Below, piece by piece: positions 1,001 through 61,542 of a stretch of 64,000 nucleotides of DNA. The translations under genes and the position numbers were made by a program. The notes under the pieces were generated by a model, which saw nothing but the letters and a program-made list of their open reading frames with translations, was not told the DNA's origin and did not search any database. This DNA comes from Neoarius graeffei (lineage: Eukaryota > Chordata > Actinopteri > Siluriformes > Ariidae). Position 1 is the stretch's first letter; each line of letters opens with the position of its first letter. The stretch spans positions 67,838,871 to 67,902,870 of the forward strand of contig NC_083579.1 in the NCBI RefSeq assembly GCF_027579695.1, in the 5' to 3' direction.

Positions 1001-1618
1001 AGGGGAACAGAGGGCAATATATAGAGTAAATATAACAATAAAACACACATTAACGAACCTTATTCAAGACTTACAAAAGTTTTTTGTTCTAAGGTTGGAA
1101 AGTTATAGTGTTTTGAAAGTAGCTCGAGCAAACTATTTCCGCAGTGATATTAATTTTATCCAATCAGAATGCACGTTCATTTTCTCTGCGTAACACTCAT
1201 GACGTATGTATGTGCCCAGTTGTGTTGGCTCACTGAGGTTGGGAATAGCACGTGTGAATCGGAAAGTAGGATGAATTGTAAGTGATCGGCTACACAAACT
1301 GGTTCAAACTGGTACCGTTCTAAGCCATAGCCTGCTTGCAGTGTGTCTTGCGGGATCTCTTCGTATGATTCGACAGAGCTGTCGCTTTCACTTGATGCAC
1401 CCGACGCCATGATTACACGCTTCTCTCCTAGTGCAGTGAATAAGGCTGACGTCACGGTCTTTTAAAAATGGCGACTCTTGTGCCGTTTAGCGTACCGACT
1501 ATTATATTTACAATTACCAAGATATTTCGTTGTTTTCTAGTATGTAAATTTGATCGAATACTTAAGAATACGTTACTTTGTTACATCAGCAACTGTATAT
1601 ATTATATTTGGTGCCCCT
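1001..1618. mobile_element. TTAA-target DNA transposon derivative, copy A
   Basis: The element is flanked by TTAA at 997-1000 and 1619-1622. Its termini are AGGGGAAC and, inverted, AGGGGCAC, and the inner parts pair again as AATATATA. TTAA duplication is typical of piggyBac and Kolobok superfamilies. It lies inside the Tol2-like hAT remnant. No complete transposase is present, so it is non-autonomous. Confidence 0.65.
1294..1410 (-). pseudogene. Transposon-borne coding exon (serine/acid-rich N-terminus)
   Basis: From the ATG at 1410 the minus frame reads MASGASSESDSSVES and then LERYQFEPV, followed by a GT donor (GTAGCC). Acidic-serine N-termini followed by a 'YxFEP' motif occur in fish and cnidarian transposon-associated proteins with a P2X7-like zinc domain. 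That family assignment is recalled, not tested. The downstream zinc domain is absent here. It is probably the 5' exon of the autonomous parent of copy A, retained in the deletion derivative. Confidence 0.35.
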
Positions 1619-1660
1619 TTAAGTAAATGTACTTCGTTACTGTCCACCTCTGGTTACATT

Positions 1661-2870
1661 ATATGTTCTGTGATTTCTGCAAGACAAGTTACTCCCTTAC
1701 ATTCTAGCAGCTATAAACAATCGTTCCCTCAGCAGCCTCTCTTAATTTCTCTCTCTCTCAGTTCATAAAACAAAAATCACAGCTCGTCATGTTACCAAGA
1801 AACCACAAAGTCCTCTATCGTGAAGACTTTGCTGTGATGGAAACCCTTACTGAGCTTCACAAAGCTGTGACACCGGAGCCTCCGTCCATAAATGTTAAAC
1901 AAACATTGAACAGAAAGCTTTACCGTATCAATGATTATACTTTTCTTTTTGTCAAATGCGCGTTTGCCTGCGACTAAGCCGAAACGATAACGTATTCGAA
2001 CGAGCACATTAATATAAACACTTTCAGATTCAAGAATTCATCAGCGCTTTGGTATAATGCTGATTATAAAGTGCATGAAGGCTGATTATAAAGAGCATTA
2101 CAGTTGATTATAAAGAGCATTAATGCTGATTATAAATTATTGCCAAAGGGCAATTGCTTGGTCGTAGAGATTGTGATCAGCACACATACCTTCACGTATC
2201 AATAAGCACTGCGTCAGTCGAGACCATATTACTCTCCACAAGTGCCTCATTACGGTGCCACATACTGCTTGTGTATTGAGTTTTATTACCTTGTGTGCTG
2301 TATTTTATGATCAGTTCCAAACGTACCGCACTCATGCTAGCGGACTAAAACAACTGAATCTGTCCGACATCATGGCTCCGTTGTATCAGTGATTGGTGTA
2401 CGTCATTAAGAGGGTCTGAAAATAAGTCTGGTTGATAAATTTGAGGGATTCGTCTTAACGTCGTTCCGGTTAAACTCTTCGACGTTATACACCATTTACA
2501 GCGCCATAGGGCAGCAAGTCCTGTTTCAGAAAGAGTTAATAGCATAATATCTTAAAAAGCCTGACAATCTGCATGATTAATTGTTGGGTTTTGTTGACGT
2601 TTTACAAAACTTCAACGTATTTTTGACACAAGGCAGATTCTACCGTAACTGGATCCATTAACCACTTGCCCACAAAATAAGAAATTTTTCTTGTCCTTTT
2701 TTCAGTGAGGTAATATTTTCAAGATTGAAAATATGGTATTTGGTCTTCTAAAACAGCACATGTCATTTAAAAATACACTGAGTATATCAATAAAATATTT
2801 TTAAAGAAAAAAGTTCTATTTCTTTGACATGTCTGACAGACATAACTCCCATTTTAAAAATCCCTTTCAT
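1661..2870. other. Intergenic, no gene seen
   Basis: There is no convincing coding exon here. Positions 1789-1910 resemble 36020-36130 plus 36520-36540: both have 'TATCGTGAAGACTTT'-like text and end in 'CCATAAATGTTAAA'. They are therefore two copies of an unnamed dispersed repeat. Confidence 0.4.
2058..2148. repeat. Short tandem repeat, unit about GCTGATTATAAAGAGCATTA
   Basis: Four imperfect head-to-tail copies of GCTGATTATAAAG followed by AGCATTA or a variant can be read directly. Confidence 0.8.
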
Positions 2871-3730
2871 TATCCCTGTTGCTATCGTCAGTGAATTTCT
2901 GTCAGATGACCTGACGATAGACTCAGCCATTATGGATCTTTGGTAGTTATCGTGTGGAAGCAGGCTTTATCATTTTTGGGTGTCAACAGATACCGTAGCG
3001 TTGAAATAGATTAACAGCGAAAAAACTATTTCGTTCACGAGAGAAGCCCACGGTTATTTTTAAAAAATGCTTTCGTCAGTCTGTCAGTCAAATGCACCTG
3101 ACGATAGCAAAATTCAAGCCCTCACCACGCACATGTTGACTGACGCAAAGAGGAAATTCTACTGCGCATGATTTTTGTGACCGCAGACATTTACTTCCGG
3201 GCAAGACTTGGAGTTCTGACAGCTAGATTTCATCAAATAAATCAAGGTAAGATTTTCTGTCAGCTATCCTGACGATAGAAATTTTTGACGATAGAAACAT
3301 TGAGAATATATTTGTGCATTCATATTTAAATTTTTCTGGAGGAAAACTATCGTAAGTTGAGATAAATCAGAGCCACTTGCGACCCTTTCAGCCGACAGGC
3401 CATTTCAATGTGTTATTTCCCCACGAAAGTGACACAGTCGTGTCTATCGTCACTGTTCTGACAATTATTGTTGATATTTCAATTTTGAAAATAAATTTTC
3501 TCTTTTTTATTTCAATATTTTATTTTATTATTTGGTTCTAGTGATGAGGTATTTTAATATTATTACTAAATTTGTCAGATTAATAATGTAAGAAACGGTT
3601 TTGTTGCTATTGTCATCTAGAGTGTCTGTCAGAATATGATGGTCGACGTTAGTTTGTCTGTCAGATTTTGATGGTAGAAACCGATGTGTTTCTATTGTCA
3701 TTTAGCATGTCTGTCATGTCAGGCTTTTAT
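2870..3730. repeat. Cluster of CTATCGTCAG / CTGACGATAG motifs
   Basis: The 10-mer CTGACGATAG, its reverse complement, or a close variant recurs at about 2883, 2911, 3101, 3269, 3288 (core), 3348 (variant) and 3442. CTGTCAG words are interspersed. Arrays of short motifs in both orientations resemble the subterminal transposase-binding repeats of DNA transposons, but I could not define termini or a target duplication. Confidence 0.5.
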
Positions 3731-6918: not shown

Positions 6919-28974
<22,056 letters not shown>

Positions 28975-29965: not shown

Positions 29966-30322
29966 CGGCAGCACGGTGGTGTAGTGGTTAGCGCTGGCGC
30001 CTCACAGCAAGAAGGTCCTGGGTTTGGGGCCGGCGAGGGCCTTTCTGTGTGGAGTTTGCATGTTCTCCCCGTGTCCGCGTGGGTTTCCTCCGGGTGCTCC
30101 GGTTTCCCCCACAGTCCAAAGACATGCAGGTTAGGTTAACTGGTGACTCTAAATTGACCGTAGGTGTGAATGGTTGTCTGTGTCTATGTGTCAGCCCTGT
30201 GATGACCTGGCGACTTGTCCAGGGTGTACCCCGCCTTTCGCCCGTGGTCGGCTGGAATGGGCTCCAGCTTGCCTGCGACCCTGTAGAGGGATGAAGCGGC
30301 TGGAGATAATGAGATGAGATGA
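29966..30322 (+). mobile_element. tRNA-derived SINE, (GAGAT)n-tail family
   Basis: Plus-strand copy with target duplication GACATTTTTCTGG at 29953-29965 and 30323-30335. Short internal deletions have occurred. Confidence 0.92.
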
Positions 30323-30788
30323 GACATTTTTCTGGCCATTTTGAGCATTTAATCGAGCCCACAAATGTGATGCTCCAGAAACTCAATCTGCTCAAAGGAA
30401 GGTCAGTTTTATAGCTTCTCTAAAGAGCTAAACTGTTTTCAGCTGTGCTAACATGATTGTACAAGGGTTTTCTAATCATCCATTAGCCTTCTGAGGCAAT
30501 GAGCAAACACATTGTACCATTAGAACACTGGAGTGAGAGTTGCTGGAAATGGGCCTCTATACACCTATGGAGATATTGCACCAAAAACCAGACATTTGCA
30601 GCTAGAATAGTCATTTACCACATTAGCAATGTATTGACCCATCCCACGTGACGTCACGACAAATGCGGCTGCCATTTTGGACATGAACTGCCAGTAGTCT
30701 ACCACAGCCAACAACGAGGAACGACAGCGAAGCATTGAAAGGAATATAGCCATCAAAGAAAGTTTTTACTTTCAGCAAGACTTCCATC

Positions 30789-30968
30789 ATGCCATTATAT
30801 TGTTGTGCACCTGGATGTAGTAACCATCAACACACAAGGCAAGATTTATCATTTTATCGGATCCCGACAGATGCTGACCGACGGAGAAGATGGATAGCGG
30901 CCATTAACAGGAAAGATTGGCAGCCCTCGGCATACCAACGCTTGTGTAGTGACCACTTTGTTGGAGGG
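30789..30968 (+). pseudogene. THAP zinc-finger exon of ISL2EU-like element
   Basis: The frame opens MPLYCCAPGCSN, continues with SFYRIPTD and RRRRWIAAINRKDW, and closes LCSDHFVGG. This is the C2CH pattern of THAP domains: C-x3-C, a conserved Trp, then C-x2-H. THAP fingers bind transposon ends. The donor after FVGG is GGAAGA here, whereas copy 2 (near 51145) has GTAAGA, so this copy has lost its splice donor. Confidence 0.75.
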
Positions 30969-31394
30969 AAGACGAATAAAATTAGCCAGAAAAGGCATTA
31001 CATTGCTGTTAACATTTTGTGGCGGCGAGTGTGTAACCAAATAGGTTAAAATAACCCATTGTAACCTCTTTGTTCTGATGTAACTGTACTCTCATAGTGC
31101 TCACCGATCCACGAGTGTAACGTTTTAACAGTCATCCAAATGACTGAACGTAACATTGCTACAGTAACATACTAGCTACTATGTTGTTGACATTAGCTAG
31201 TGCTAACAGCAAGCTGCTAGTACACTGCTACAACACAGACACCGACCCTAATAATACAGTTCTTGGTCATTGCCCGGTAACAGCAAATTTATAACGGGCC
31301 ATGTTTCAACAGACTAAGAAGTTATTTCAATGACATTTAATAACATTTTGTTTATCCTGAGGACCGACATTAAATGAAAATGTGAACAAACCTT

Positions 31395-31817
31395 AGCTGT
31401 AATAAGATGGCGACCACCGGCTCCAGGGACGACCCGCTGATGTAGGCATGTGACCCAGCCTGACACAAAATATTTGTAGGCATCCAAACTCTTATACGCT
31501 TTCAGATCAATACCTGTGTATGGCGATGGGTTTTTAACGACATAGGTATACAGATCATGTGGGCCGAAGTCAGGTAAAGACGAGGGCTTCGTGTACTTCC
31601 GTACGTCAGTGAACAATCCTGGTGGAAGCAGGTAAACGTCGTTCTCTAATCCTGCTAACCTCAATTTTTGCAAATACCTCTCCCTCTGCTCACCCTGTAA
31701 ATGCCCTACGTCGCTGGATAGTGAAGGTGTTTTCTGCATCTCGCTCCTTTTTCTTTTATGTTTTTCATTTGTCGTCTTCCTCGCATTCAAACCGATTCGA
31801 ACCGAAGTCCACTTCAT
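31395..31817 (-). pseudogene. 5' exon of YqaJ-family-like transposon protein
   Basis: The minus frame reads KHKRKRSEMQKTP, YLQKLRLAGLENDVYLLPP, PDFGPHDLYTYVV, then LKAYKSLDAYKYFVSGWV. The 'AYKSLDAYKYFVSGWV' motif is familiar from N-terminal regions of fish transposon proteins that go on to SWIM and YqaJ-nuclease domains; that recognition is from memory. Those domains are absent here. The same exon, broken, is in copy 2 at 52600-52901. Confidence 0.5.
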
Positions 31818-32359
31818 GTCCAAAATGGTGGTCGCGTTTACGAAGGTCACATGAGTGGGAAGGGTCAATAGAGTGTATTTCTGATTAGTTTAAAGTGATC
31901 TTCATTGAAAAGAACAGTGCTTTTCTTTCAAAAATAAGGACATTTCAAAGTGACCCCAAACTTTTGAACGGTAGTGTATAAAATTTTACAGTACAAACAT
32001 TTGTATGAAAGTCAAAAAGCACAAACTTCCACCACCCCCTCCCGCCCACCCACCCAACCAACCATTCCCATCCCTTCACAAAACAGGCATACAAATCACA
32101 AGCGAGGACATATAAAACATTAACAGTAAGGGAGAACAAAGCAAACACAAGACAAATAAACTGTAAATAAATAAAAAAAAATAGGGGACATTGGTGGCCA
32201 GATCCTTGGTGGTTGTTTGCATAACAATCACAGTTATGGTGTATTTGTGATAACATCATAACAAGAGAGTAATAGAGGCCCTAAAGTGAAAAATAGGAAG
32301 ACTTTACAGTACCATTGAGGAGATTAGATACATATCCTAAGTAGGAGGCTGGTATAGAA

Positions 32360-33077: not shown

Positions 33078-35430
33078 ATGTTGAACCCGAGACCGAGATC
33101 CTGACCTCTTCTGCTCCTCAGACCTGCCTGATCCGTCCTGATGCCCTACGTCTGGCTGGAGTCTCATCACGTCACTCCTGTAAAGGACGGCCCCCATATG
33201 GACAGTCGAAAGTTGCGCTTGGAAGACAGTCAAAAATTGCGCTTTTGCACTCAAGTTTCCATCAATGAACAGTTTATAACATCAACATAACAGATCATAA
33301 TTTAGGTGTATAACTATTTCTTCTATTAGAAAATTAATAGAAAACACCCACAATTCACTCCGTCTGTCCCTCTGAGTTACATGTCGAACCCGAGACCGAG
33401 ATCCTGACTTCTTTTGCTCCTTGGACCTGCCTGATCCATCCTGACGCCCTACGTCTGGCTGGAGTCTCATCACGTTGCTCCTGTAAAGGACGGCCCCCAT
33501 ATGGACAGTCGAAGGTCGCGCTTGGAAGATGGTCTGGATGCTTAGAGTAATGCATTTACTGTACAGTATGTCTGAGGACTTCAGTTGTCATGAACACTTT
33601 TGCCCTCAAGTTTCCATCAATGAACAGTTTATAACTTCAACATAACAGACCATAATTTAGGTGTATAACTATTTCTTCTATTAGAAAATTAATAGAAAAC
33701 ACCCACAATTCACTCCGTCTATCCCTCTGAGTTACATGTCGAACCCGAGACCGAGATCCTGACTTCTTTTGCTCCTTGGACCTGCCTGATCCATCCTGAC
33801 GCCCTACGTCTGGCTGGAGTCTCATCACGTCGCTCCTGTAAGGATGGCCCCCATATGGACAGTCGAAAGTCACGCTTGGAAGATGCTCTGGACGCTTAGA
33901 GTAATACATTTACTGTACAGTATGTCTGAGGACTTCAGTCGTCATGAACACTTTTGCCCTCAAGTTTCCATCAATGAACAGTTTATAACTTCAACATAAC
34001 AGATCATAATTTAGGTGTATAACTATTTCTTCTATTAGAAAATTAATAGAACCCCCCCACACACACACACACTTCACTCCGTCTGTCCCTCTGAGTTACA
34101 TGTTGAACCCGAGATTGAGATCCTGACCTCTTCTGCTCCTCAGACCTGCCTGATCCGTCCTGACGCCCTACGTCTGGCTGGAGTCTCATCACGTCGCTCC
34201 TGTAAAGGACGGCCCCCATATGGACAGTCGAAGGTCGCGCTTGGAAGATGGTCTGGATGCTTAGAGTAATGCATTTACTGTACAGTATGTCTGAGGACTT
34301 CAGTTGTCATGAACACTTTTGCCCTCAAGTTTCCATCAATGAACAGTTTATAACATCAACATAACAGACCATAATTTAGGTGTATAACTATTTCTTCTAT
34401 TAGAAAATTAATAGAAAACACCCACAATTCACTCCGTCTGTCCCTCTGAGTTACATGTTGAACCCGAGACCGAGATCCTGACCTCTTCTGCTCCTCGGAC
34501 CTGCCTGATCCGTCCTGACGCCCTACGTCTGGCTGGAGTCTCATCACGTCGCTCCTGTAAAGGACGGCCCCCATATGGACAGTCAAAAGTTGCACTTGGA
34601 AGATGCTCTGTACGCTTAGAGTAATACATTTACTGTATTTCTGAGGACTTCAGTTGTCATGAACACACTTGCACTCAAGTTTCCATCAATGAACGGTTTA
34701 TAACTTCAACATAACAGGCCATAATTTAGGTGTATAACTATTTCTTCTATTAGAAAATTAATAGACCCCCTCCCTCCCCCCTCCCCAATTCACTCTGCCT
34801 ATCCCTCTGAGTTACATGTCGAACCCGAGACCGAGATCCTGACCTCTTCTGCTCCTCGGACCTGCCTGATCCGTCCTGATGCCCTACGTCTGGCTGGAGT
34901 CTCATCACGTCGCTCCTGTAAAGGATGGCCCCCATATGGACAGTCAAAAGTTGCGCTTGGAAGACGCTCTGGATGCTTAGAGTAACACATTTACTGTACA
35001 GTATGTCTGAGGACTTCAGTCGTCATGAACACTTTTGCCCTCAAGTTTCCATCAATGAACAGTTTATAACTTCAACATAACAGACCATAATTTAGGTGTA
35101 TAACTATTTCTTCTATTAGAAAATTAATAGAAAACACCCACAATTCACTCCATCTGTCCCTCTGAGTTACATGTTGAGACCGAGATCTTGACCTCTTCTG
35201 CTCCTCGGACCTGCCTGATCCGTCCTGACGCCCTACGTCTGGCTGGAGTCTCATCACGTCGCTCCTGTAAAGGACAGCCCCCATATGGACAGTCAAAAGT
35301 TGCACTTGGAAGATGCTCTGTACGCTTAGAGTAATACATTTACCGTATTTGAGGACTTCAGTCGTCATGAACACTTTTGCACTCAAGTTTCCATCAATGA
35401 ACGGTTTATAACTTCAACAAAACAGACTTC
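33078..35430. repeat. Tandem array, about seven units of ~360 bp
   Basis: The motif GACCTGCCTGATCC(G/A)TCCTGA recurs near 33120, 33426, 33780, 34145, 34500, 34860 and 35210. Spacing is about 305, then 355-365. Each full unit also has CAAGTTTCCATCAATGAACA and TTTCTTCTATTAGAAAATTA. The array joins directly to the dispersed-repeat tail at 35431. Minus-strand frames across it are repeat artefacts. Confidence 0.92.
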
Positions 35431-49650: not shown

Positions 49651-51159
49651 ATCTCATGCAGGCTTGTAGTACTTGAGTCCAGGACTCAGACTAGAGTCTG
49701 ATTCGTGCCCTAATTTTAAGGACTCGTGACTTGACTTGGACTTGAACACTGATGACTCGGACTTGTGCATTAACTGCATTCGGACTCGTAAATTGGAGAT
49801 GAGGACTCAGATTTTTTCTTTATTTTTCTGTAACATGCCATAATAATTTGGCATAAAATATTTATATCTACATTCATTTTGTGCAAGAGAATGCACACTG
49901 ACCTGTTCATACGTCATGTTCAGGAACAAACTAACGTTAATGGCGCTAAAATGCCTGGAGAGAACGCCCCTAGGATTGTCCACTTTGCTTATACAGACTT
50001 CTCGTGCAGTGGGGAAAAAAATGCACTGCTACAGTTAGGTCCATAAATATTTGGACAGAGGCAACATTTGTCTAATTTTGGTTCTGTACATTACCACAAT
50101 GAATTTTGAACAAAACAATTCAGATGCAGTTGAAGTGCAGACTTTCAGCTTTAATTCAGTTGGTTGAACAAAATGATTGCATAAACATGTGAGGAACTAA
50201 AGCATTTTTTAAACACAATCCCTTCATTTCAGGGGCTCAAAAGTAATTGGACAAATTAAATAATTGTAAATAAAATGTGGGTGGTAGAAATGGGCAACTG
50301 GACTTGCTTGAAGATTCTTGAAAACGTTTCACCTCTCGTCCAAAAGGCTTCCTCAGTTCTGTCTGACTAATAGGGAGTATCAGATATTTATCCTCTCCTG
50401 GATCAGAATCAGAATTCTGATGACCAGCTCATCTAAGGTGTCACTGAGGCATCATGTTGGTGTGGGTCACTGGAGGCTGGGTGTGAACAGCGAGTCATTA
50501 GGGTGATCAAAGGATTGTCCGTTAGGGTGATCAATGGCAATCTGACTCTCTGTCCTCCTGTGAGTCACTGAAAACAGCTGGGTCCTGGCGTACACCCAGC
50601 CGTCTGGGAAGAGTGTCCAATACCGCCTTGTAGATGGTTGACAAATGATGTCTTAGACCCCCACCTCTGTTCAGTGATGGCTGTTCCAGGTTGACAAAAA
50701 TGGCTTCTTTAACTCCTCGCTCATACCAACGATCCTCTCTGGCTAAAATGCGTACATTACAATCCTGAAATGAGTGTCCTTTGTTGTTAAGATGAATGTA
50801 GACAGCCGAGTCCTGGCCTGAGGAGCTGGCTCTCCTGTGTTGGGCCAAGCGCCTGTATGGACCCTTTTCACGTGACGTCACGACAAACGCGGCTGCCATT
50901 TTGGACGTGTACTACCAGTAGTTTACCACAGCCAACATTGAGGAACGGCAGCAAAGAAAGTTTTTACTTTCAGCAAGACTTCCATCATGCCACTATATTG
51001 TTGTGCACCTGGATGTAGTAACCATCAACAAACAAGGCAAGGTTTATCATTTTATCGGATCCCGACGGAGAAGATGGATAGCGGCCATTAACAGATTGGC
51101 AGCCCTCGGCATACCAACGCTTGTGTAGTGACCACTTTGTTGGAGGTAAGACGAATAAA

Positions 51160-51967
51160 GGCCCAATCCCAATTCTAATTTCTACCCCTCCCCCTCCCCC
51201 TTCCCCTCCGCCTTCCCCTTGGCCCTTCCCCTTGAAACTGAGCTACAAGGGATAGGGCTTGAAATTCAACCCTTACGTATTGGGATAGCCCTTCAACGAT
51301 CGCATACGTCATCGCGTACCTCCGTCAGCGTTTACGTTAGCAAAACGCGACCAAATGCGTCATTGGCTGCGACCAGCCGCTACAGTCAGAGCCAGAAATC
51401 TCTGCTGGCAGGGTGTGATTTGTTAACTAACACCACTGAATGGGATATCTTTGGCGCTTCGTGCACCACATCCGACAGAATGAGGTGTCAGAACACTCAT
51501 GTAAACAATAAAAGCGAGAATAACAGAACAAAACGTATGCAGTAAAGCAACCGAAAACAATACTCACTCCCAAAGCTTTTTAGCAGCAGCTTGGATTTCA
51601 GAAATCGCTGCTCATTCTCAGCTCGAAAGCGAATCAAGCGGCGTGTTTCCTCTGGATAACAACTTAAAACATGTAAATAATGGAGAAAATACATTTATGA
51701 CAATCTTTCGCCGCGGGAACCGCCATCTTTCTGAAATCCGCATGAAATCTCGCTGAAATCCGCATGGCATTGTGGGAAATCACTCAAACCCCTTCGTTCG
51801 GAGTCAGCTCCAGGAAAATCTCCGTTTGGAGGGGTACAGAAGCCCTCCCCCTTCCCCTACCCCTCCGCGTTAACTGGGATTGGGATACCCCTACCCCTTC
51901 ACGTGAACGCGCAAAATGGAGGGGAAGGGCCAAGGGGTTGGTCCAAGGGGTGAAATGGGATTCGGCC
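51160..51967. mobile_element. PIF/Harbinger-like element, innermost level
   Basis: The ends GGCCCAATCCCAATTC and, inverted, GGCCGAATCCCATTTC are flanked by AAA at 51157-51159 and 51968-51970. ISL2EU-like copy 1 shows the uninterrupted site as GAATAAAATTAG. A 3-bp duplication and a Myb/SANT-like exon suggest PIF/Harbinger. Confidence 0.65.
51568..51651 (-). pseudogene. Myb/SANT-like exon in Harbinger-like element
   Basis: Bounded by the acceptor TTATCCAG and the donor GTGAGT, the minus-strand exon reads ETRRLIRFRAENEQRFLKSK. This resembles the Myb/SANT DNA-binding partner protein of Harbinger transposons. Neighbouring exons were not located. Confidence 0.45.
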
Positions 51968-52266
51968 AAAATTAGCCAGAAAAGGCATTACATTGCTGTT
52001 AACATTCTGTGGCGGCGAGTGTGTAACCAAATAGGCTAAAATAACCCATTGTAACCTCTTTGTTCTTCTGTAGTAGCTATTGTTGACTAGCTAATGTCAA
52101 CAACATAGTAGCTGGTATGTTACTGTAGCAATGTTTACGTTCAGTCATTTGGATGACTGTTAAAACCTTTCAGTCTCAAGTTTTTCCTTTACTGTATTTA
52201 CTAGTTTACTGTAATTATGATCCAGCCGCTATTTACACCGGATCCAGTGTAAATAGCTGCCGGAGC

Positions 52267-52595
52267 CAACGTCCGAGGTTCCGGAACGCGCTCCGGCTTG
52301 CTCTCCCTCAAATTAAGCAGTGCACGCCGGCTTGCTCTCCCTCAAATTAAGCAGTGCACGCCGGCTTGCTCCCGGAGTGCTCCGGCCGAGGTTCCCCTCA
52401 AATTAAGCAGCGCGCGCCGGCTTGCTCCCGGAGTGCTCCGGCCGAGGTTCCGGAGCACACTCCGTCCGAGGTTGCCCTCAAATTAAGCAGCGCGCTCCGG
52501 GTTGCTCTGGAGCAAGCCAGAGCGCGCTCCGTAACCTCGGCCGGAGCACTCCTGGAGCAAGCCGGAGCGCGCTCCAGAACCTCGGACGTTGGCGT
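52267..52595. repeat. GC-rich foldback minisatellite
   Basis: The ends CCAACGTCCGAGGTTCCGGA and its near-inverse (AACCTCGGACGTTGG) bracket several copies of CCTCAAATTAAGCAG(C/T)GC and GCCGGCTTGCTC. It is both tandemly repeated and palindromic, and is absent from ISL2EU-like copy 1. Confidence 0.8.
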
Positions 52596-52599
52596 GTAT

Positions 52600-52901
52600 G
52601 TGTATGGCGATGGGTTTTTAACGACATAGGTATACAGATCATGTGGGCCGAAGTCAGGTAAAGACGAGCGCTTCGTGTACTTCCGTACGTCAGTGAACAA
52701 TCCTGGTGGAAGCAGGTAAACGTCGTTCTCTAAGCCTGCTAACCTCAATTTTTGCAAATACCTCTCCCTCTGCTCGCCCTGTAAATGCCCTACGTCGCTG
52801 GATAGTGAAGGTGTTTTCTGCATCTCGCTCCTTTTTCTTTTATGTTTTTCATTTGTCGCCTTCCTCGCATTCAAACTGATTCGAGCCGAAGTCCGCTACA
52901 T
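52600..52901 (-). pseudogene. YqaJ-family-like 5' exon, broken copy
   Basis: It matches the exon at 31395-31817 (LQKLRLAGLENDVYLLPP, PDFGPHDLYTYVV). Here the ATG at 52901 is followed immediately by TAG, and the 3' part is replaced by the GC-rich foldback. Confidence 0.55.
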
Positions 52902-54407
52902 GTCCAAAATGGCGGTCGCGTTTACGAAGGTCACGTGACTGAAAAGGGTCTATAGCGGTTGTTTGGTCTCACCAATATACGAATCTGTGCAATTCTCACT
53001 GCACTGAATTGCATACACTACGTTGTCCTGTTTGTGTCTGGGTATTCTGTCCTTAGGGTGGACCAGTTTCTGCTTCAGGGTGTTGCTGGGTCTGAAATGT
53101 ACCGGAATGTTGTGTTTGTAGAAGATTCTCCTGAGTTTCTCAGATAGACCAGAAATGTAGGGAATGACAATGTTCTTGCGTTTGTTCCTGTTATCATCCT
53201 TGTCAGTTATGTTCCTTTTTATGCTCTTTAGGAAAGCCCAGTTGGGATAACCGCAATTCTGAAGTGCTTCCTTGATATGATTCTGCTCCTTCTCTTTTCC
53301 CTCTAATGTTGTAGGAATGTTCTGAGCCCTGTGTTGCAAGGTCCTAATGACCCCCAATTTATGTTCCAGTGGGTGGTGAGAGTCGAAAAGTCTGTGTGTG
53401 TGGGTTTCCGGTAGACCTCGATACTAAGGCTTCTGTCTTGTCTAATGTGTACATCACAATCCAAGAAGGCTAGATTATTCCCACTGACATCCTCCCGAGT
53501 GAAGTTGATGTTGCTATCCACTGCATTGATGTGTTTCGAGAAAGCTTCCACCTCCTGGATTTTGATTTTAACCCAGGTATCATCCACGTATCTAAACCAA
53601 TGGCTGGGAGCAACTCCTGCAAAAGTGGTCAAAGCTATATGTTCCACTTCCTCCATGTATAAATTGGCCACAATAGGGGACAGTGGTGATCCCATGGCTC
53701 ATCCATGCTTCTGTCTGTAGAAACTTTCATTAAACTGGAAATAAGTGGTAGTCAGGCAGAGGTCAAGCAGGGTGCAAATCTGATCCGTGGTGAGTTTCGT
53801 TCTATCCAGTAAGGAGCTATCCTGAAGGAGTCGTTTTCTTACAGATTCGACTGCTTCTGTGGTGGGAATGCAGATAAACAGAGAAGTGACATCGTAGGAA
53901 ACCATGGTTTCATATGAATCTAGTTTGAGGTCTGCAACTTTAGAAGCAAATTCTTGGGAATTTTTGACATGATGTGGTGTATTCCCAACCAGAGGAGCCA
54001 AGATGGTGGCTAAGTGTTTAGCAATGTTATATGTGACCGAGTTTATACTGCTGATAATAGGTCTGAGAGGAGCTCCTTCTTTGTGAATCTTGGGGAGTCC
54101 GTATATGAGAGGCACGGCTTCCCCAGGGTACAATCTGTAGTAAAGAGATCGGTTGATGGCTTGGTCCTTTTCTAGTTGTTGCAAACAGCTAACAACTTTC
54201 CTTTTGTAACCACTTGTGGGGTCCCTCCTCAATGTTTCATAAGTGGTTGTATCACTGAGGAGACTGGTCATCCTGGAGTGGTAGTCCGCTGTATTTAGCA
54301 CCACTGTGCATCTCCCTTTGTCAGCAGGAAGGATGGTGATGTTCCGGTCTCGTTGAAGCACTGTAAGAGCCCTCGTTTCTTGGCTGGTGAGGTTGGAGGG
54401 GGGTGCT

Positions 54408-56856
54408 GGTGCGGGAGTATGAGAAGTGTTCCAGAAAACTGGCAGACTACAGAAACCACCTGTGTTTTAACCTGAGATGCCGACAATCCAACATTATCTC
54501 CACTAGCCTACGCCTATTTTCAACGGTTAAAGGACACAGAGCTGAGATAATCCTGCAGAAAGCCCAGAAGCAGCTTCTCAATGAGAGAGTGAGACAAGTA
54601 CATTTCACCATCGATGCTCTCCAGAACAAGACTAAACTGAGGTTTGAGGAGTTGACAGCCCTTCTTCCCAGTGAAGTTTTGGAACGAGTCTCTGATCTCA
54701 CTGAGAAGGCACAGCTTTCACAACACACCAAAGGTAAGGAACGACAGATGCGCAAATTTCAAAAATTGCTGTCTAAAACCACCTCCTCTGACAAGACAGA
54801 AGGGCTGTCTTGGAGGAAGAAATCTGACTAGGCTACACCACCAGACATAGAAGAGAAATGGGTGAAGAACTTATCCGACAGGGTACTCACCCAACCAGAG
54901 AGAGATGTCTTATCCAAGGGTCTTAACTTTGCAGTTTCACCTGAGCAGATACCGGTAGTAGAACTCATCACAGCCACAGAGACAGCCATCAGGAACAACA
55001 ACCTGACCAACACGGAGTCAGAACAACTTAGACTGAAGATATCAGCTGCTCTATCCAGTGCTAAAGCACCCCCCTCCAACCTCACCAGCCAAGAAACGAG
55101 GGCTCTTACAGTGCTTCAACGAGACTGGAACATCACCATCCTTCCTGCTGACAAAGGGAGATGCACAGTGGTTCTAAATACAGCAGACTACCACTCCAGG
55201 ATGACCAGTCTCCTCAGTGATACAACCACTTATGAAACATTGAGGAGGGACCCCACAAGTGGTTACAAAAGGAAAGTTGTTAGCTGTTTGCAACAACTAG
55301 AAAAGGACCAAGCCATCAACCGATCTCTTTACTACAAATTGTACCCTGGGGAAGCCGTGCCTCTCATATACGGACTCCCCAAGATTCACAAAGAAGGAGC
55401 TCCTCTCAGACCTATTATCAGCAGTATAAACTCGGTCACATATAACATTGCTAAACACTTAGCCACCATCTTGGCTCCTCTGGTTGGGAATACACCATAT
55501 CATGTCAAAAATTCCCAAGAATTTGCTTCTAAAGTTGCAGACCTCAAACTAGATTCAGATGAAACCATGGTTTCCTACGATGTCACTTCTCTGTTCACCT
55601 GCATTCCCACCACAGAAGCAGTCGAATCTGTAAGAAAACGACTCCTTCAGGATAGCTCCTTACTGGATAGAACGAAACTCACCATGGATCAGATTTGCAC
55701 CCTGTTTGACCTCTGCCTGACTACCACTTATTTCCAGTTTAATGAAAGTTTCTACAGACAGAAGCATGGATGCGCCATGGGATCACCACTGTCCCCTATT
55801 GTGGCCAATTTATACATGGAGGAAGTGGAACATATAGCTTTGACCACTTTTGCAGGAGTTGCTCCCAGCCATTGGTTTAGATACGTGGATGATACCTGGG
55901 TTAAAATCAAAATCCAGGAGGTGGAAGCTTTCTCGAAACACATCAATGCAGTGGATAGCAACATCAACTTCACTCGGGAGGATGTCAGTGGGAATAATCT
56001 AGCCTTCTTGGATTGTGATGTACACATTAGACAAGACAGAAGCCTTAGTATCGAGGTCTACCGGAAACCCACACACACAGACCAGTACCTACTTTTCGAC
56101 TCTCACCACCCACTGGAACATAAATTGGGGGTCATTAGGACCTTGCAACACAGGGCTCAGAACATTCCTACAACATTAGAGGGAAAAGAGAAGGAGCAGA
56201 ATCATATCAAGGAAGCACTTCAGAATTGCGGTTATCCCAACTGGGCTTTCCTAAAGAGCATAAAAAGGAACATAACTGACAAGGATGATAACAGGAACAA
56301 ACGCAAGAACATTGTCATTCCCTACATTTCTGGTCTATCTGAGAAACTCAGGAGAATCTTCTACAAACACAACATTCCGGTACATTTCAGACCCAGCAAC
56401 ACCCTGAAGCAGAAACTGGTCCACCCTAAGGACAGAATACCCAGACACAAACAGGACAACGTAGTGTATGCAATTCAGTGCAGTGAGAATTGCACGGATT
56501 CGTATATTGGTGAGACCAAACAACCGCTATACAGGCGCTTGGCCCAACACAGGAGAGCCAGCTCCTCAGGCCAGGCCTCGGCTGTCTACATTCATCTTAA
56601 CAACAAAGGACACTCATTTCAGGATTGTAATGTACGCATTTTAGCCAGAGAGGATCGTTGGTATGAGCGAGGAGTTAAAGAAGCCATTTTTGTCAACCTG
56701 GAACAGCCATCACTGAACAGAGGTGGGGGTCTAAGACATCATTTGTCAACCATCTACAAGGCGGTATTGGACACTCTTCCCAGACGGCTGGGTGTACGCC
56801 AGGACCCAGCTGTTTTCAGTGACTCACAGGAGGACAGAGAGTCAGATTGCCATTGA
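54408..56856 (+). pseudogene. Penelope-like reverse transcriptase / GIY-YIG polyprotein, one stop
   Basis: One plus-strand frame of about 816 codons is broken only by TAG at 54829-54831; the 3' part is open for 665 codons from 54862. Its 5' end has no ATG and appears truncated at the inverted junction. In order: a coiled, basic N-terminal region; reverse-transcriptase motifs PADKGRCTVV, YGLPKIHKEGAPLRPIIS, SYDVTSLFTCIP (motif A), CAMGSPLSPIVANLY (motif B) and RYVDDTW (motif C, about 55879); then a linker; then the GIY-YIG endonuclease with VYAIQCSE and SYIGETKQPLYRRL (about 56465-56540), HSFQD and a catalytic-type Glu in VKEAIFVNLEQP. Penelope-like elements nick DNA with the GIY-YIG domain and prime reverse transcription there. 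Only one disabling change is visible, so the copy is young. Confidence 0.92.
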
Positions 56857-57149
56857 TCACCCTAACGGACAATCCTTTGATCACCCTAATGACTCGCCGT
56901 TCACACCCAGCCTCCAGTGACCCACACCAACATGATGCCTCAGTGACACCTTAGATGAGCTGGTCATCAGAATTCTGATTCTGATCCAGGAGAGGATAAA
57001 TATCTGATACTCCCTATTAGTCAGACAGAACTGAGGAAACCTTTTGGACGAGAGGTGAAACGTTTTCAAGAATCTTCAAGCAAGTCCAGTTGCCCATTTC
57101 TACCACCCACAGTTTACTATGACCTGGATGATTGAGAATCTTCACAGAC
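56857..57149 (+). other. Penelope-like element 3' untranslated end
   Basis: It runs from the stop to ATGACCTGGATGATTGAGAA and the target duplication. The last ~43 bases, from about 57107, are missing from the inverted arm, which begins at 50278 with TGGGTGGTAGAAATGGG. Confidence 0.8.
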
Positions 57150-57171
57150 TTGTAAATAAAATGTTCATTTC

Positions 57172-58387
<1,216 letters not shown>

Positions 58388-58685
58388 ACCTCAAATCAAC
58401 TCCAGGCCTTTTATCTGCTTAATTGAAAATGACATAATGAAGGAATTGCCCACACCTGCCCATGAAATAGCCTTTGAGTCAATTGTCCAATTACTTTTGG
58501 TCCCTTTAAAAACAGGGTGGCACATGTTGAGGAGCTGAAACTCCTAAACCCTTCATCCAATTTTAATGTGGATACCCTCAAATGAAAGCTGAAAGTCTGG
58601 ACTTTATGTCCATGTCCATTATATAACTATAACTTGAATATGTTTCAGTAAACAGGTAAAAAAAGAAAAATTGTGTCAGTGTCCA

Positions 58686-58790
58686 CATATATATGGACCA
58701 AACTGTATGTGTTCCATATGTAAAAGAACTATTGAGGAGACAACGGGGATGACCTCGAATTTCAATCGTCATTTGGTAAGACTCCACCCA
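58686..58790 (+). pseudogene. BED zinc-finger remnant of the outer hAT element
   Basis: The plus frame reads MCSICKRTIEETTG then TSNFNRHLVRLHPEK, giving C-x2-C ... H-x4-H as in BED fingers. The Tc1-like insertion ends just before it (58705). Confidence 0.6.
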
Positions 58791-59366
58791 GAGAAGGAAG
58801 TGACACACTATGTTCATTGCTCTGTTAATAGCGGGGCGTGCTTACTGACTGATAAACTAGCTAGTGTTAACCCTCTCTCATGTTCGTTGCCCTGTTGATA
58901 GCGGGGCTTGTGTTGGACTCGACTCGGCTCAGAATAGATGAAAGATACATCTCATGGATGTGCTGGTATGCATCATCAGCGATGTAACCTGGAGTCATCG
59001 GGTGTTTCGGGTCATTCAACGTCATACACCATCTCCCAGGCAACCCAGCCATGGTTGATCAGACCCCAGCTTGCGTCCCAGCAGTATTCGTCCACGTATC
59101 CACACTCTTAATCTAAAGCCACCTTGTTACTTTCTCTGCGGCTTCTGCTGCATTCTTCATGGCTTTCTTCTTTGCTTGCCCTGTGATGCCCAGCATGTGA
59201 TGCCAATCGTCATTTGGCAAGAGTCCACCCAGAGAAGGAAGTGACACACTATGTTCATTGCTTTGTTGATAGTGGGGCTTGCTTGCTGACTGATAGACTA
59301 ACGAGTGTTAACCCTCTTTCATGTTCATTGCCCTGTTGATAGTGGGGCTTGTGTTGGACTTGACTC
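58767..59366. repeat. Internal duplication in hAT element
   Basis: The block at 58767-58927 (ATCGTCATTTGGTAAGACTC to TGTTGGACTCGACTCG) recurs in the same orientation at about 59206-59366. In between is unrelated text with AGTCATCGGGTGTTTCGGG. Confidence 0.8.
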
Positions 59367-59470
59367 GAAATTTTCATTAATGACTTGGACTCTACTCAGA
59401 CTTGAACACTGGGAACTCTAGACTGGACTCGGACTCGAGGTTTTGTGACGACTACAACCCTGGTCTCATG

Positions 59471-60652: not shown

Positions 60653-60656
60653 TTAA

Positions 60657-61296
60657 AGTGCCATTCCACCATTGGATGTATTCTTTGGCATAAAATACAA
60701 TATATTTTATGACAACATGACTAGATAGAGAAATCTTTTAGCTTCAAAATGATATATCAAACATAATTTTTTGACAACGACAAGTATATTAATTTTGCGA
60801 CCAAAGTCACCTACCCTTTTAATTTCCGCACGGTAGTGAAACAAGATATCATCGGCAGGTTCCCCTTCTTGTGTACCACGTCACGTGTGACGTGGCACAG
60901 ATTATCAGCAATGGCGGATAGAACGCGATTTCCACTTGTCGATTGCTGTGCCGATATTCACCATCGACCGTCTCCTTTGGGCATCACTTGCTATTTTCCT
61001 TCGCTTTTTTTCCAAAGCTGACAATCGCGTTCTATCCGCCATTGCTGATAATCTGTGCCACGTCACACGTGACGTGGTACACAAGAAGGGGAACCTGCCG
61101 ATGACATCACGTTTCACTACCGCGCGGAAATTAAAAGGGTAGGTGACTTTGGTCGCAAAATTAATATACTTGTCGTTGTCAAAAAATTATGTTTGATATA
61201 CCATTTTGAAGCTAAAAGATTTCTCTGTCTAGTCATGTTGTCATAAAATATGTTGTATTTTATGCCAAAGAATACATCCAATGGTGGAATGGCACT
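60657..61296. mobile_element. TTAA-target foldback transposon, copy B
   Basis: Flanked by TTAA at 60653-60656 and 61297-61300. The two arms (60657 to about 60930, and about 61023-61296) are near-perfect inverted repeats of about 274 bp, starting AGTGCCATTCCACCATTGGA. The minus frame 61117-60905 spans the right arm and centre: MADRTRLSALEKKRRKIASD, then QRRRSMVNIGTAIDKWKS. Confidence 0.88.
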
Positions 61297-61542
61297 TTAA
61301 TGAACTCTTTTTTTTTTTTTATAAACATGTGCAAAATAATATCAGTAATAAACCTCGAACAAACTACACTGTCAGACGTAAATATTAAATTTTCCTTTTG
61401 TTATGAAGTGTTTTAAATAATATTAACTCAAGCAAGTAAGTTTTCACTTCACCAGATTTATTCTACCATGCTAATTTTCTTTATAGTGTGTTAATGCCTG
61501 ACTGAAGTTGTTTCATGGAAGCGTAAAACATTTTTATATATA

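Follow-up and report, generated by a model that had tools for sequence, protein, structure and literature searches.

A five-transposon nest in the Neoarius graeffei genome and two regularities of its Penelope-like and ISL2EU-type layers

We examined a stretch of 64,000 nucleotides from Neoarius graeffei (NC_083579.1, positions 67,838,871 to 67,902,870; hereafter the window), in which five transposons lie one within another at positions 49651-59470: a hAT element containing a Tc1-like element, which contains a Penelope-like element (PLE), which contains an ISL2EU-type element, which contains a Harbinger-like element. We are highly confident that this is a real nest, built by successive insertions at one locus. 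Boundaries and target-site duplications (TSDs) were found at all five levels, and empty sites were found for levels 2-5. Nested transposons are common and this nest is of an ordinary kind, but it is true and unusually clean, with each level checked, and is thus a good example for reading insertion order. Two regularities, the repeated use of one PLE site by ISL2EU-type elements and the single tail of PLE insertions, matter more than the nest itself and merit a genome-wide count. All genome comparisons were searches of the window's own 2.34-Gb genome, in which the window lies on contig C11 and other loci are labelled C1, C8, C13 or L followed by a number.

Layers, boundaries and empty sites

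The features of the nest, together with one related copy elsewhere in the window, are as follows.

49651-49658: left TSD of the hAT element, ATCTCATG, matching 59463-59470 at 7 of 8 positions
49659-59462, plus strand: level 1, read as a non-autonomous hAT element with a BED-finger remnant (from termini, TSD and zf-BED match)
50030-50031: left TSD of the Tc1-like element, TA
50032-58705, minus strand: level 2, Tc1-like element with broken transposase and imperfect inverted ends
50264-50277: left TSD of the PLE, TTGTAAATAAAATG
50278-57149: level 3 overall, PLE with two inverted arms and a 14-bp TSD
50278 to about 54407, minus strand: left PLE arm, 5'-truncated, with the tailless end, split by level 4
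50859-52951, plus strand: level 4, ISL2EU-type element, 2093 bp including level 5; TSD AT at 50857-50858 and 52952-52953
51160-51967, plus strand: level 5, Harbinger-like non-autonomous element, 808 bp; TSD AAA at 51157-51159 and 51968-51970
About 54408 to 57149, plus strand: right PLE arm, carrying the reverse transcriptase open reading frame (ORF)
56528-56531, plus strand: TATA of the right PLE arm, the level 4 empty site
57111-57149, plus strand: PLE tail of about 38-40 nt, at the right end only
57150-57163: right TSD of the PLE, TTGTAAATAAAATG
58065-58220, plus strand: microsatellite, TTCT continuing as (TC)n, within the Tc1 transposase region
58706-58707: right TSD of the Tc1-like element, TA
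58763-59367, plus strand: 164-bp direct duplication (58763-58926 and 59204-59367; 91%) flanking a 277-bp non-hAT piece (58927-59203)
59463-59470: right TSD of the hAT element, GTCTCATG, 7 of 8 positions as in the left TSD
30635-31867, plus strand: ISL2EU copy 1, the level 5 empty site, coding for a THAP domain

As the initial annotation had proposed, the nest has five levels: all five boundary pairs could be read, the outer coordinates were exact to the base, and each level carried the TSD ascribed to it (8 bp with one mismatch, TA, 14 bp, AT and AAA, from the outside in). The order of insertion at the locus, from the hAT element through the Tc1-like element, the PLE and the ISL2EU-type element to the Harbinger-like element, was also as claimed. 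The further statement that the order of activity of five superfamilies can be read here was too strong, because one locus yields insertion order only and activity periods may overlap; other PLE copies contain several ISL2EU-type terminal types. The superfamily names held, with reservations for the ISL2EU and Harbinger labels; at the Penelope level the right arm had been named, but not the head-to-head inverted pair to which it belongs. The stack in fact holds at least six units, because the hAT element also carries the 164-bp duplication around a foreign 277-bp piece. A literature search on nesting order in fish turned up nothing relevant.

The ends of the hAT element, CAGGCTTGTAGT and, reverse-complemented, CAGGGTTGTAGT, matched at 11 of 12 positions, and this short terminal inverted repeat (TIR) accompanies the 8-bp TSD (7/8) expected of the superfamily. 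One 69-aa peptide, joined across the Tc1 site, was searched and matched zf-BED (PF02892, 3.9e-05); the match begins at the Tc1 junction, with nearly all of it on the right-hand side, and this remnant was all of the hAT transposase that was recovered. Classed by its ends and finger only, level 1 is probably a non-autonomous hAT derivative. The 164-bp unit was single in all five fetched hAT copies and the 277-bp piece was absent from them, part of that piece being found at two other places (93-94%). Nearly all other hAT matches in the genome covered only the part from 59204 onward. The Tc1-like element combines a TA TSD with inverted ends whose 223-bp alignment has 147 identical and 71 mismatched positions, and the broken pieces of its transposase on the minus strand matched HTH_Tnp_Tc3_2 (PF01498, 3.7e-22) and DDE_3 (PF13358, 6.7e-11).

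The PLE layer consists of two head-to-head arms, the left on the minus and the right on the plus strand, with 15 mismatches in 2035 aligned sites and one 10-bp gap between them; both arms probably derive from related RNA and were integrated in a single event. Its TSD TTGTAAATAAAATG had just two exact occurrences in the window on either strand, at 50264 and 57150. The ORF of the right arm, with one in-frame stop at 54829-54831, matched RVT_1 (3.8e-10), a general reverse transcriptase model that is not specific to PLEs, and NCBIfam returned only reverse transcriptase models below cutoff; the inverted ends with an optional tail and the short TSD are those of a Penelope-like element. Pfam gave no match to a GIY-YIG endonuclease on this ORF, which contains a motif that we take to be GIY-YIG-like. 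An Rfam search gave no hammerhead ribozyme, its lone match at E up to 1 being a MIR820 hairpin below the gathering score. The source of that match is a GC-rich palindromic segment of the ISL2EU-type element (52265-52593), which differs in copy 1 and is shorter in the C13 copy.

In Penelope of Adineta vaga, inverted pseudo-long terminal repeats (pLTRs) carry a tail on one of them optionally, and head-to-head inversion is the most frequent arrangement, according to the available part of PMC3846280. For PAc of Anolis, the accessible text of PMC11167929 describes cutting and extension of both strands, with the tail lying between two reverse transcription start sites; in vitro, the two strands showed no difference in start site. 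The present PLE resembles these Penelope/Poseidon elements, as far as those texts describe them, in its head-to-head inversion, its short TSD of a kind that varies between insertions and its 30-40-nt tail at one end, but its inverted arm is about 2 kb long and mostly coding rather than just a pLTR.

The ISL2EU-type element of the window has a TIR with GG at its 5' end and AG at its 3' end, and an AT TSD. The single ORF searched gave no Pfam match (DDE and YqaJ domains were not otherwise sought), and copy 1 encodes a THAP domain (3.7e-16). The AT TSD, the TIR starting with GG at one end and a THAP domain in a family member agree with the ISL2EU group of PHIS in the available portion of PMC4482050. 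By contrast, the target reported there is A/AT/T, whereas here it is T/AT/A, usually preceded by C or G, and the searched ORF of the window copy lacks a transposase domain. TAT and ATA flanks were present in all 19 solo copies readable at both ends (of 20), and among 39 copies besides the window's, TAT preceded the insert in 37 and C or G stood before that in 34 (one copy was read one base shifted). We therefore use the label ISL2EU-type. Copy 1 itself lies in a repeat (30300-31950), the end of which is presumably Tc1-like.

The Harbinger-like element resembles PIF/Harbinger elements in its 3-bp AT-rich TSD, which was perfect in six of seven copies, the window included. It differs in that AAA (twice) and ATA (once) occurred among the six beside TAA and TTA, where TWA is expected, and its 808 bp are too short for a transposase domain to be expected. 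We also considered the Spy group, which according to the accessible part of PMC4482050 inserts within AAATTT with no TSD, and dropped it on the 3-bp duplications of the copies.

The search for empty sites covered levels 2-5. The two that the initial annotation had named proved real: the right PLE arm, which has no inserted bases at the level 4 site, and copy 1 at 30635-31867, which reads GAATAAAATTAG without the level 5 insert, as does the C13 copy. The exact 22-mer of the level 4 empty site occurred 299 times in the genome. For level 3, a single uninterrupted TTGTAAATAAAATG was present in all five fetched Tc1 copies (39 others were listed), and for level 2, all five fetched hAT copies were continuous across the Tc1 site.

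Use of one PLE site by ISL2EU-type elements

A query with the junction of PLE and ISL2EU-type element matched in full at eight loci and partially at others, and 17 further loci (L021-L037) were fetched. In all 17 the insert lies at the same PLE base (the left arm of L023 was read from one side only). The insert ends there were GGACCC/AGACCC in both orientations, and also AGACCCC, TGACCC and TGAGGTA. These loci were picked by junction, so they show variety, not frequency. As for frequency, there were 16 exact occupied sites (12 with NGACCC ends, the window included, and four with TGAGGTA) versus 299 empty ones, or about 5%. A set of 36 PLE copies, selected on the 3' half regardless of the site (the best 40 of 2657 candidates minus both arms of the window and of C13), included two occupied ones.

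The right PLE arm contains seven TATA, of which the level 4 site alone is flanked on either side by C or G. At the other six, 73 uninterrupted coverages in 19 loci yielded no ISL2EU match. We consider the PLE site a favoured target, to an uncertain degree, and its repeated use would stem from the target sequence, roughly (C/G)TATA(C/G).

A competing explanation, to which we give only slightly less than an even chance, is that there is no real hotspot, PLEs being abundant and TATA a common target. None of the 39 best ISL2EU copies besides the window's lies in the PLE site, which limits the hotspot claim, and another repeat bears an ISL2EU-type element at one common site in three copies (L047, L049 and L116). 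Within the PLE, the comparison of one other TATA (0 occupied, 56 empty) with the level 4 site (12 occupied, 299 empty) was not significant (p = 0.23 in Fisher's test). The occupancy of about 5% at exact sites speaks for a favoured target, as does the number of exact-end copies in the PLE site, which was five versus about 0.32 expected (four without the window, P about 0.0003), a crude expectation calculated from 2241 exact-end copies and the density of targets in the window only (30 sites).

In plants, nesting of LTR (long terminal repeat) retrotransposons is non-random and favours parts of the host elements, mostly 3' untranslated regions, according to the available part of PMC6911290. The ISL2EU-type insertions would be alike in favouring part of a host element; unlike the LTR elements of that text, the insert here is a DNA transposon and the target is one base in the coding region of a PLE. 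Among the literature matches listed, which covered few subscription papers, no title or abstract opening reported ISL2EU elements hitting PLEs. Repeated hits by one transposon group on one retrotransposon base amount to a natural assay of target choice.

Two side observations concern the loci named here. Position 30557 of the window is the empty form of the repeat site that holds an ISL2EU-type element in L047, L049 and L116, and in L021 several PLE pieces adjoin the ISL2EU insert side by side.

Tailed and tailless ends of PLE insertions

Both PLE ends were readable at 13 of 19 loci, and all 13 had one tailed and one tailless end, the tail being on the left in six and on the right in seven. 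A common TSD word linked the two ends at 11 of the 13, with none of at least 7 bases at L028 and L032. Three further PLE pairs, chosen regardless of ISL2EU, agreed, two of them being copies of one insertion. In total, none of 15 loci had two tailed ends and none had two tailless ends. Random choice of the start site at each end would give this result at the first 13 loci with a probability of 0.5 to the 13th power, or 0.0001. In Penelope/Poseidon PLEs, by contrast, the tail is described as optional in the parts of PMC3846280 and PMC11167929 available, whereas here exactly one end was tailed at 15 of 15 loci.

This pattern suggests coordinated priming of the two target strands. Trimming of one tail after the two ends pair would give an identical picture. 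Tentatively, and as a possibility that we rate somewhat lower than its negation, we propose a strict rule by which a PLE integrates as two head-to-head reverse transcripts, with initiation sites on either side of the tail and exactly one tailed end, together with the PLE's single (C/G)TATA(C/G) serving as a permanent target for ISL2EU-type elements. If this is true, the target strands are primed in coordination, with start sites not chosen independently, and the second-strand step, so far unsolved for PLE integration, can be read from genomic ends. The single-tail regularity and the shared ISL2EU site appear to be new examples of behaviour already known.

In L145-L148, on C1 at about 103.47 and 103.69 Mb, the same PLE insertion and TSD occur in opposite orientation, as an inverted duplication. 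The surrounding region, C1 103.1-103.7 Mb, is a PLE-rich cluster.

Insertion history and relative ages

The history that we propose would begin with insertion of the hAT element, followed by entry of the Tc1-like element into its BED-finger region. The PLE would have come next, into the Tc1-like element, as two head-to-head reverse transcripts, one tailed and one without a 3' tail. The minus-strand PLE arm would then have been cut by a very young ISL2EU-type element, at a TATA of the downstream coding region, and this element would in turn have received the Harbinger-like element, which is just as young, as the final insert.

That the ISL2EU-type element of the window is a separate insertion, not a PLE passenger, is well supported. 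The opposing explanation, in which PLE and ISL2EU-type element moved as one composite and level 4 predates level 3 here, is improbable. It draws on C13:54586387, where a separate PLE insertion, flanked by an 11-bp TSD of its own, carries an identically placed and oriented ISL2EU-type element that lacks the level 5 insert, and on L024, L025 and L026, in which a single deletion derivative recurs in the same orientation and which could include more composites. The second arm, judged at eight loci, was nevertheless empty in seven (the window, C13, L021, L024, L032, L036 and L037) and occupied only in L023; at L030 it held no insert and its flank had diverged. Over the 3' portion of the PLE, the window arms were 3/581 apart and the C13 arms 5/584, versus 6-8/581 across loci, and no alignment column grouped the left arms of the window and C13. 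In a tree of 24 PLE arms (27 were extracted and three with fewer than 330 aligned bases left out), the window arms were sisters with support 0.875 and the L024 arms with 0.733. The first 301 bp of the window ISL2EU-type element were identical to a C8 copy, and this element was 100% like L038 but, over 270 bp, 97.4% like the PLE-embedded copy of C13. PLE-embedded copies were scattered among unlinked ones, and inserts at the same base faced either way and had TIRs of several types. Among 18 non-empty left flanks compared, no similar pair was found at E 1e-5 (the flank of L024 and of L031 is an inner break). Composite mobilisation, which had at first looked likely once C13 was found, is thus disfavoured for the window by the arm comparison, the empty right arm and the unlinked ISL2EU matches.

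Several observations weigh against a nest of separate, successive insertions. In L023 (reverse-complemented, 1600-3420), both arms have an ISL2EU end at the site, in one orientation relative to the PLE, so this locus is probably a composite copied with its passenger, and composites therefore probably exist outside the window. Arms were sisters at only two of six two-arm loci, with C13, L021, L032 and L037 giving no resolved pairing, and gene conversion between arms could make them look related. The ISL2EU-type element (0.65%), if the divergence is taken at face value, looks older than its PLE host (0.37% per arm), with few events behind either figure. The mismatch in the hAT TSD and the 9% difference between the 164-bp copies make a join of two hAT halves conceivable, and the inverted PLE was read from the assembled contig. 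An assembly artefact in this repeat-rich region is nonetheless very remote: inverted arms that are 99% alike are difficult for short reads, but TSDs are present at each level, clean empty sites exist elsewhere, and the PLE architecture recurs at other loci, each with its own TSD.

The initial annotation had set ages falling from outside to inside as the test of the nesting order. Divergence did not contradict that order, ranking levels 1 to 3 and leaving levels 3 to 5 unranked. The best hAT relative matched at 86% (right end, 259 bp), the best Tc1 relative at 97% (the best 39 others at 95-97%) and the best PLE relatives at 98-99%. By these figures, level 1 is older than level 2, and level 2 older than level 3. 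The PLE arms diverged by about 0.37% each (15/2035 between them), the ISL2EU-type element differed from the majority of solo copies at 4/611 (0.65%), and the Harbinger-like element from the majority of six at 3/807 (0.37%), its copies being 99.3-99.5% alike. All three lie below 1% and cannot be ranked by divergence, so their order is given by nesting.

The window also contains repeats outside the nest. A tandem array at 33242-35427 has 6.2 copies of a 355-bp unit (91% match), and a 390-bp unit occurs in two tandem copies at 11451-12240 (96% match). A piece of the C13 locus matches the latter and many other stretches of the window. A 278-bp inverted repeat, 97.5% alike, lies at 60653-61300.

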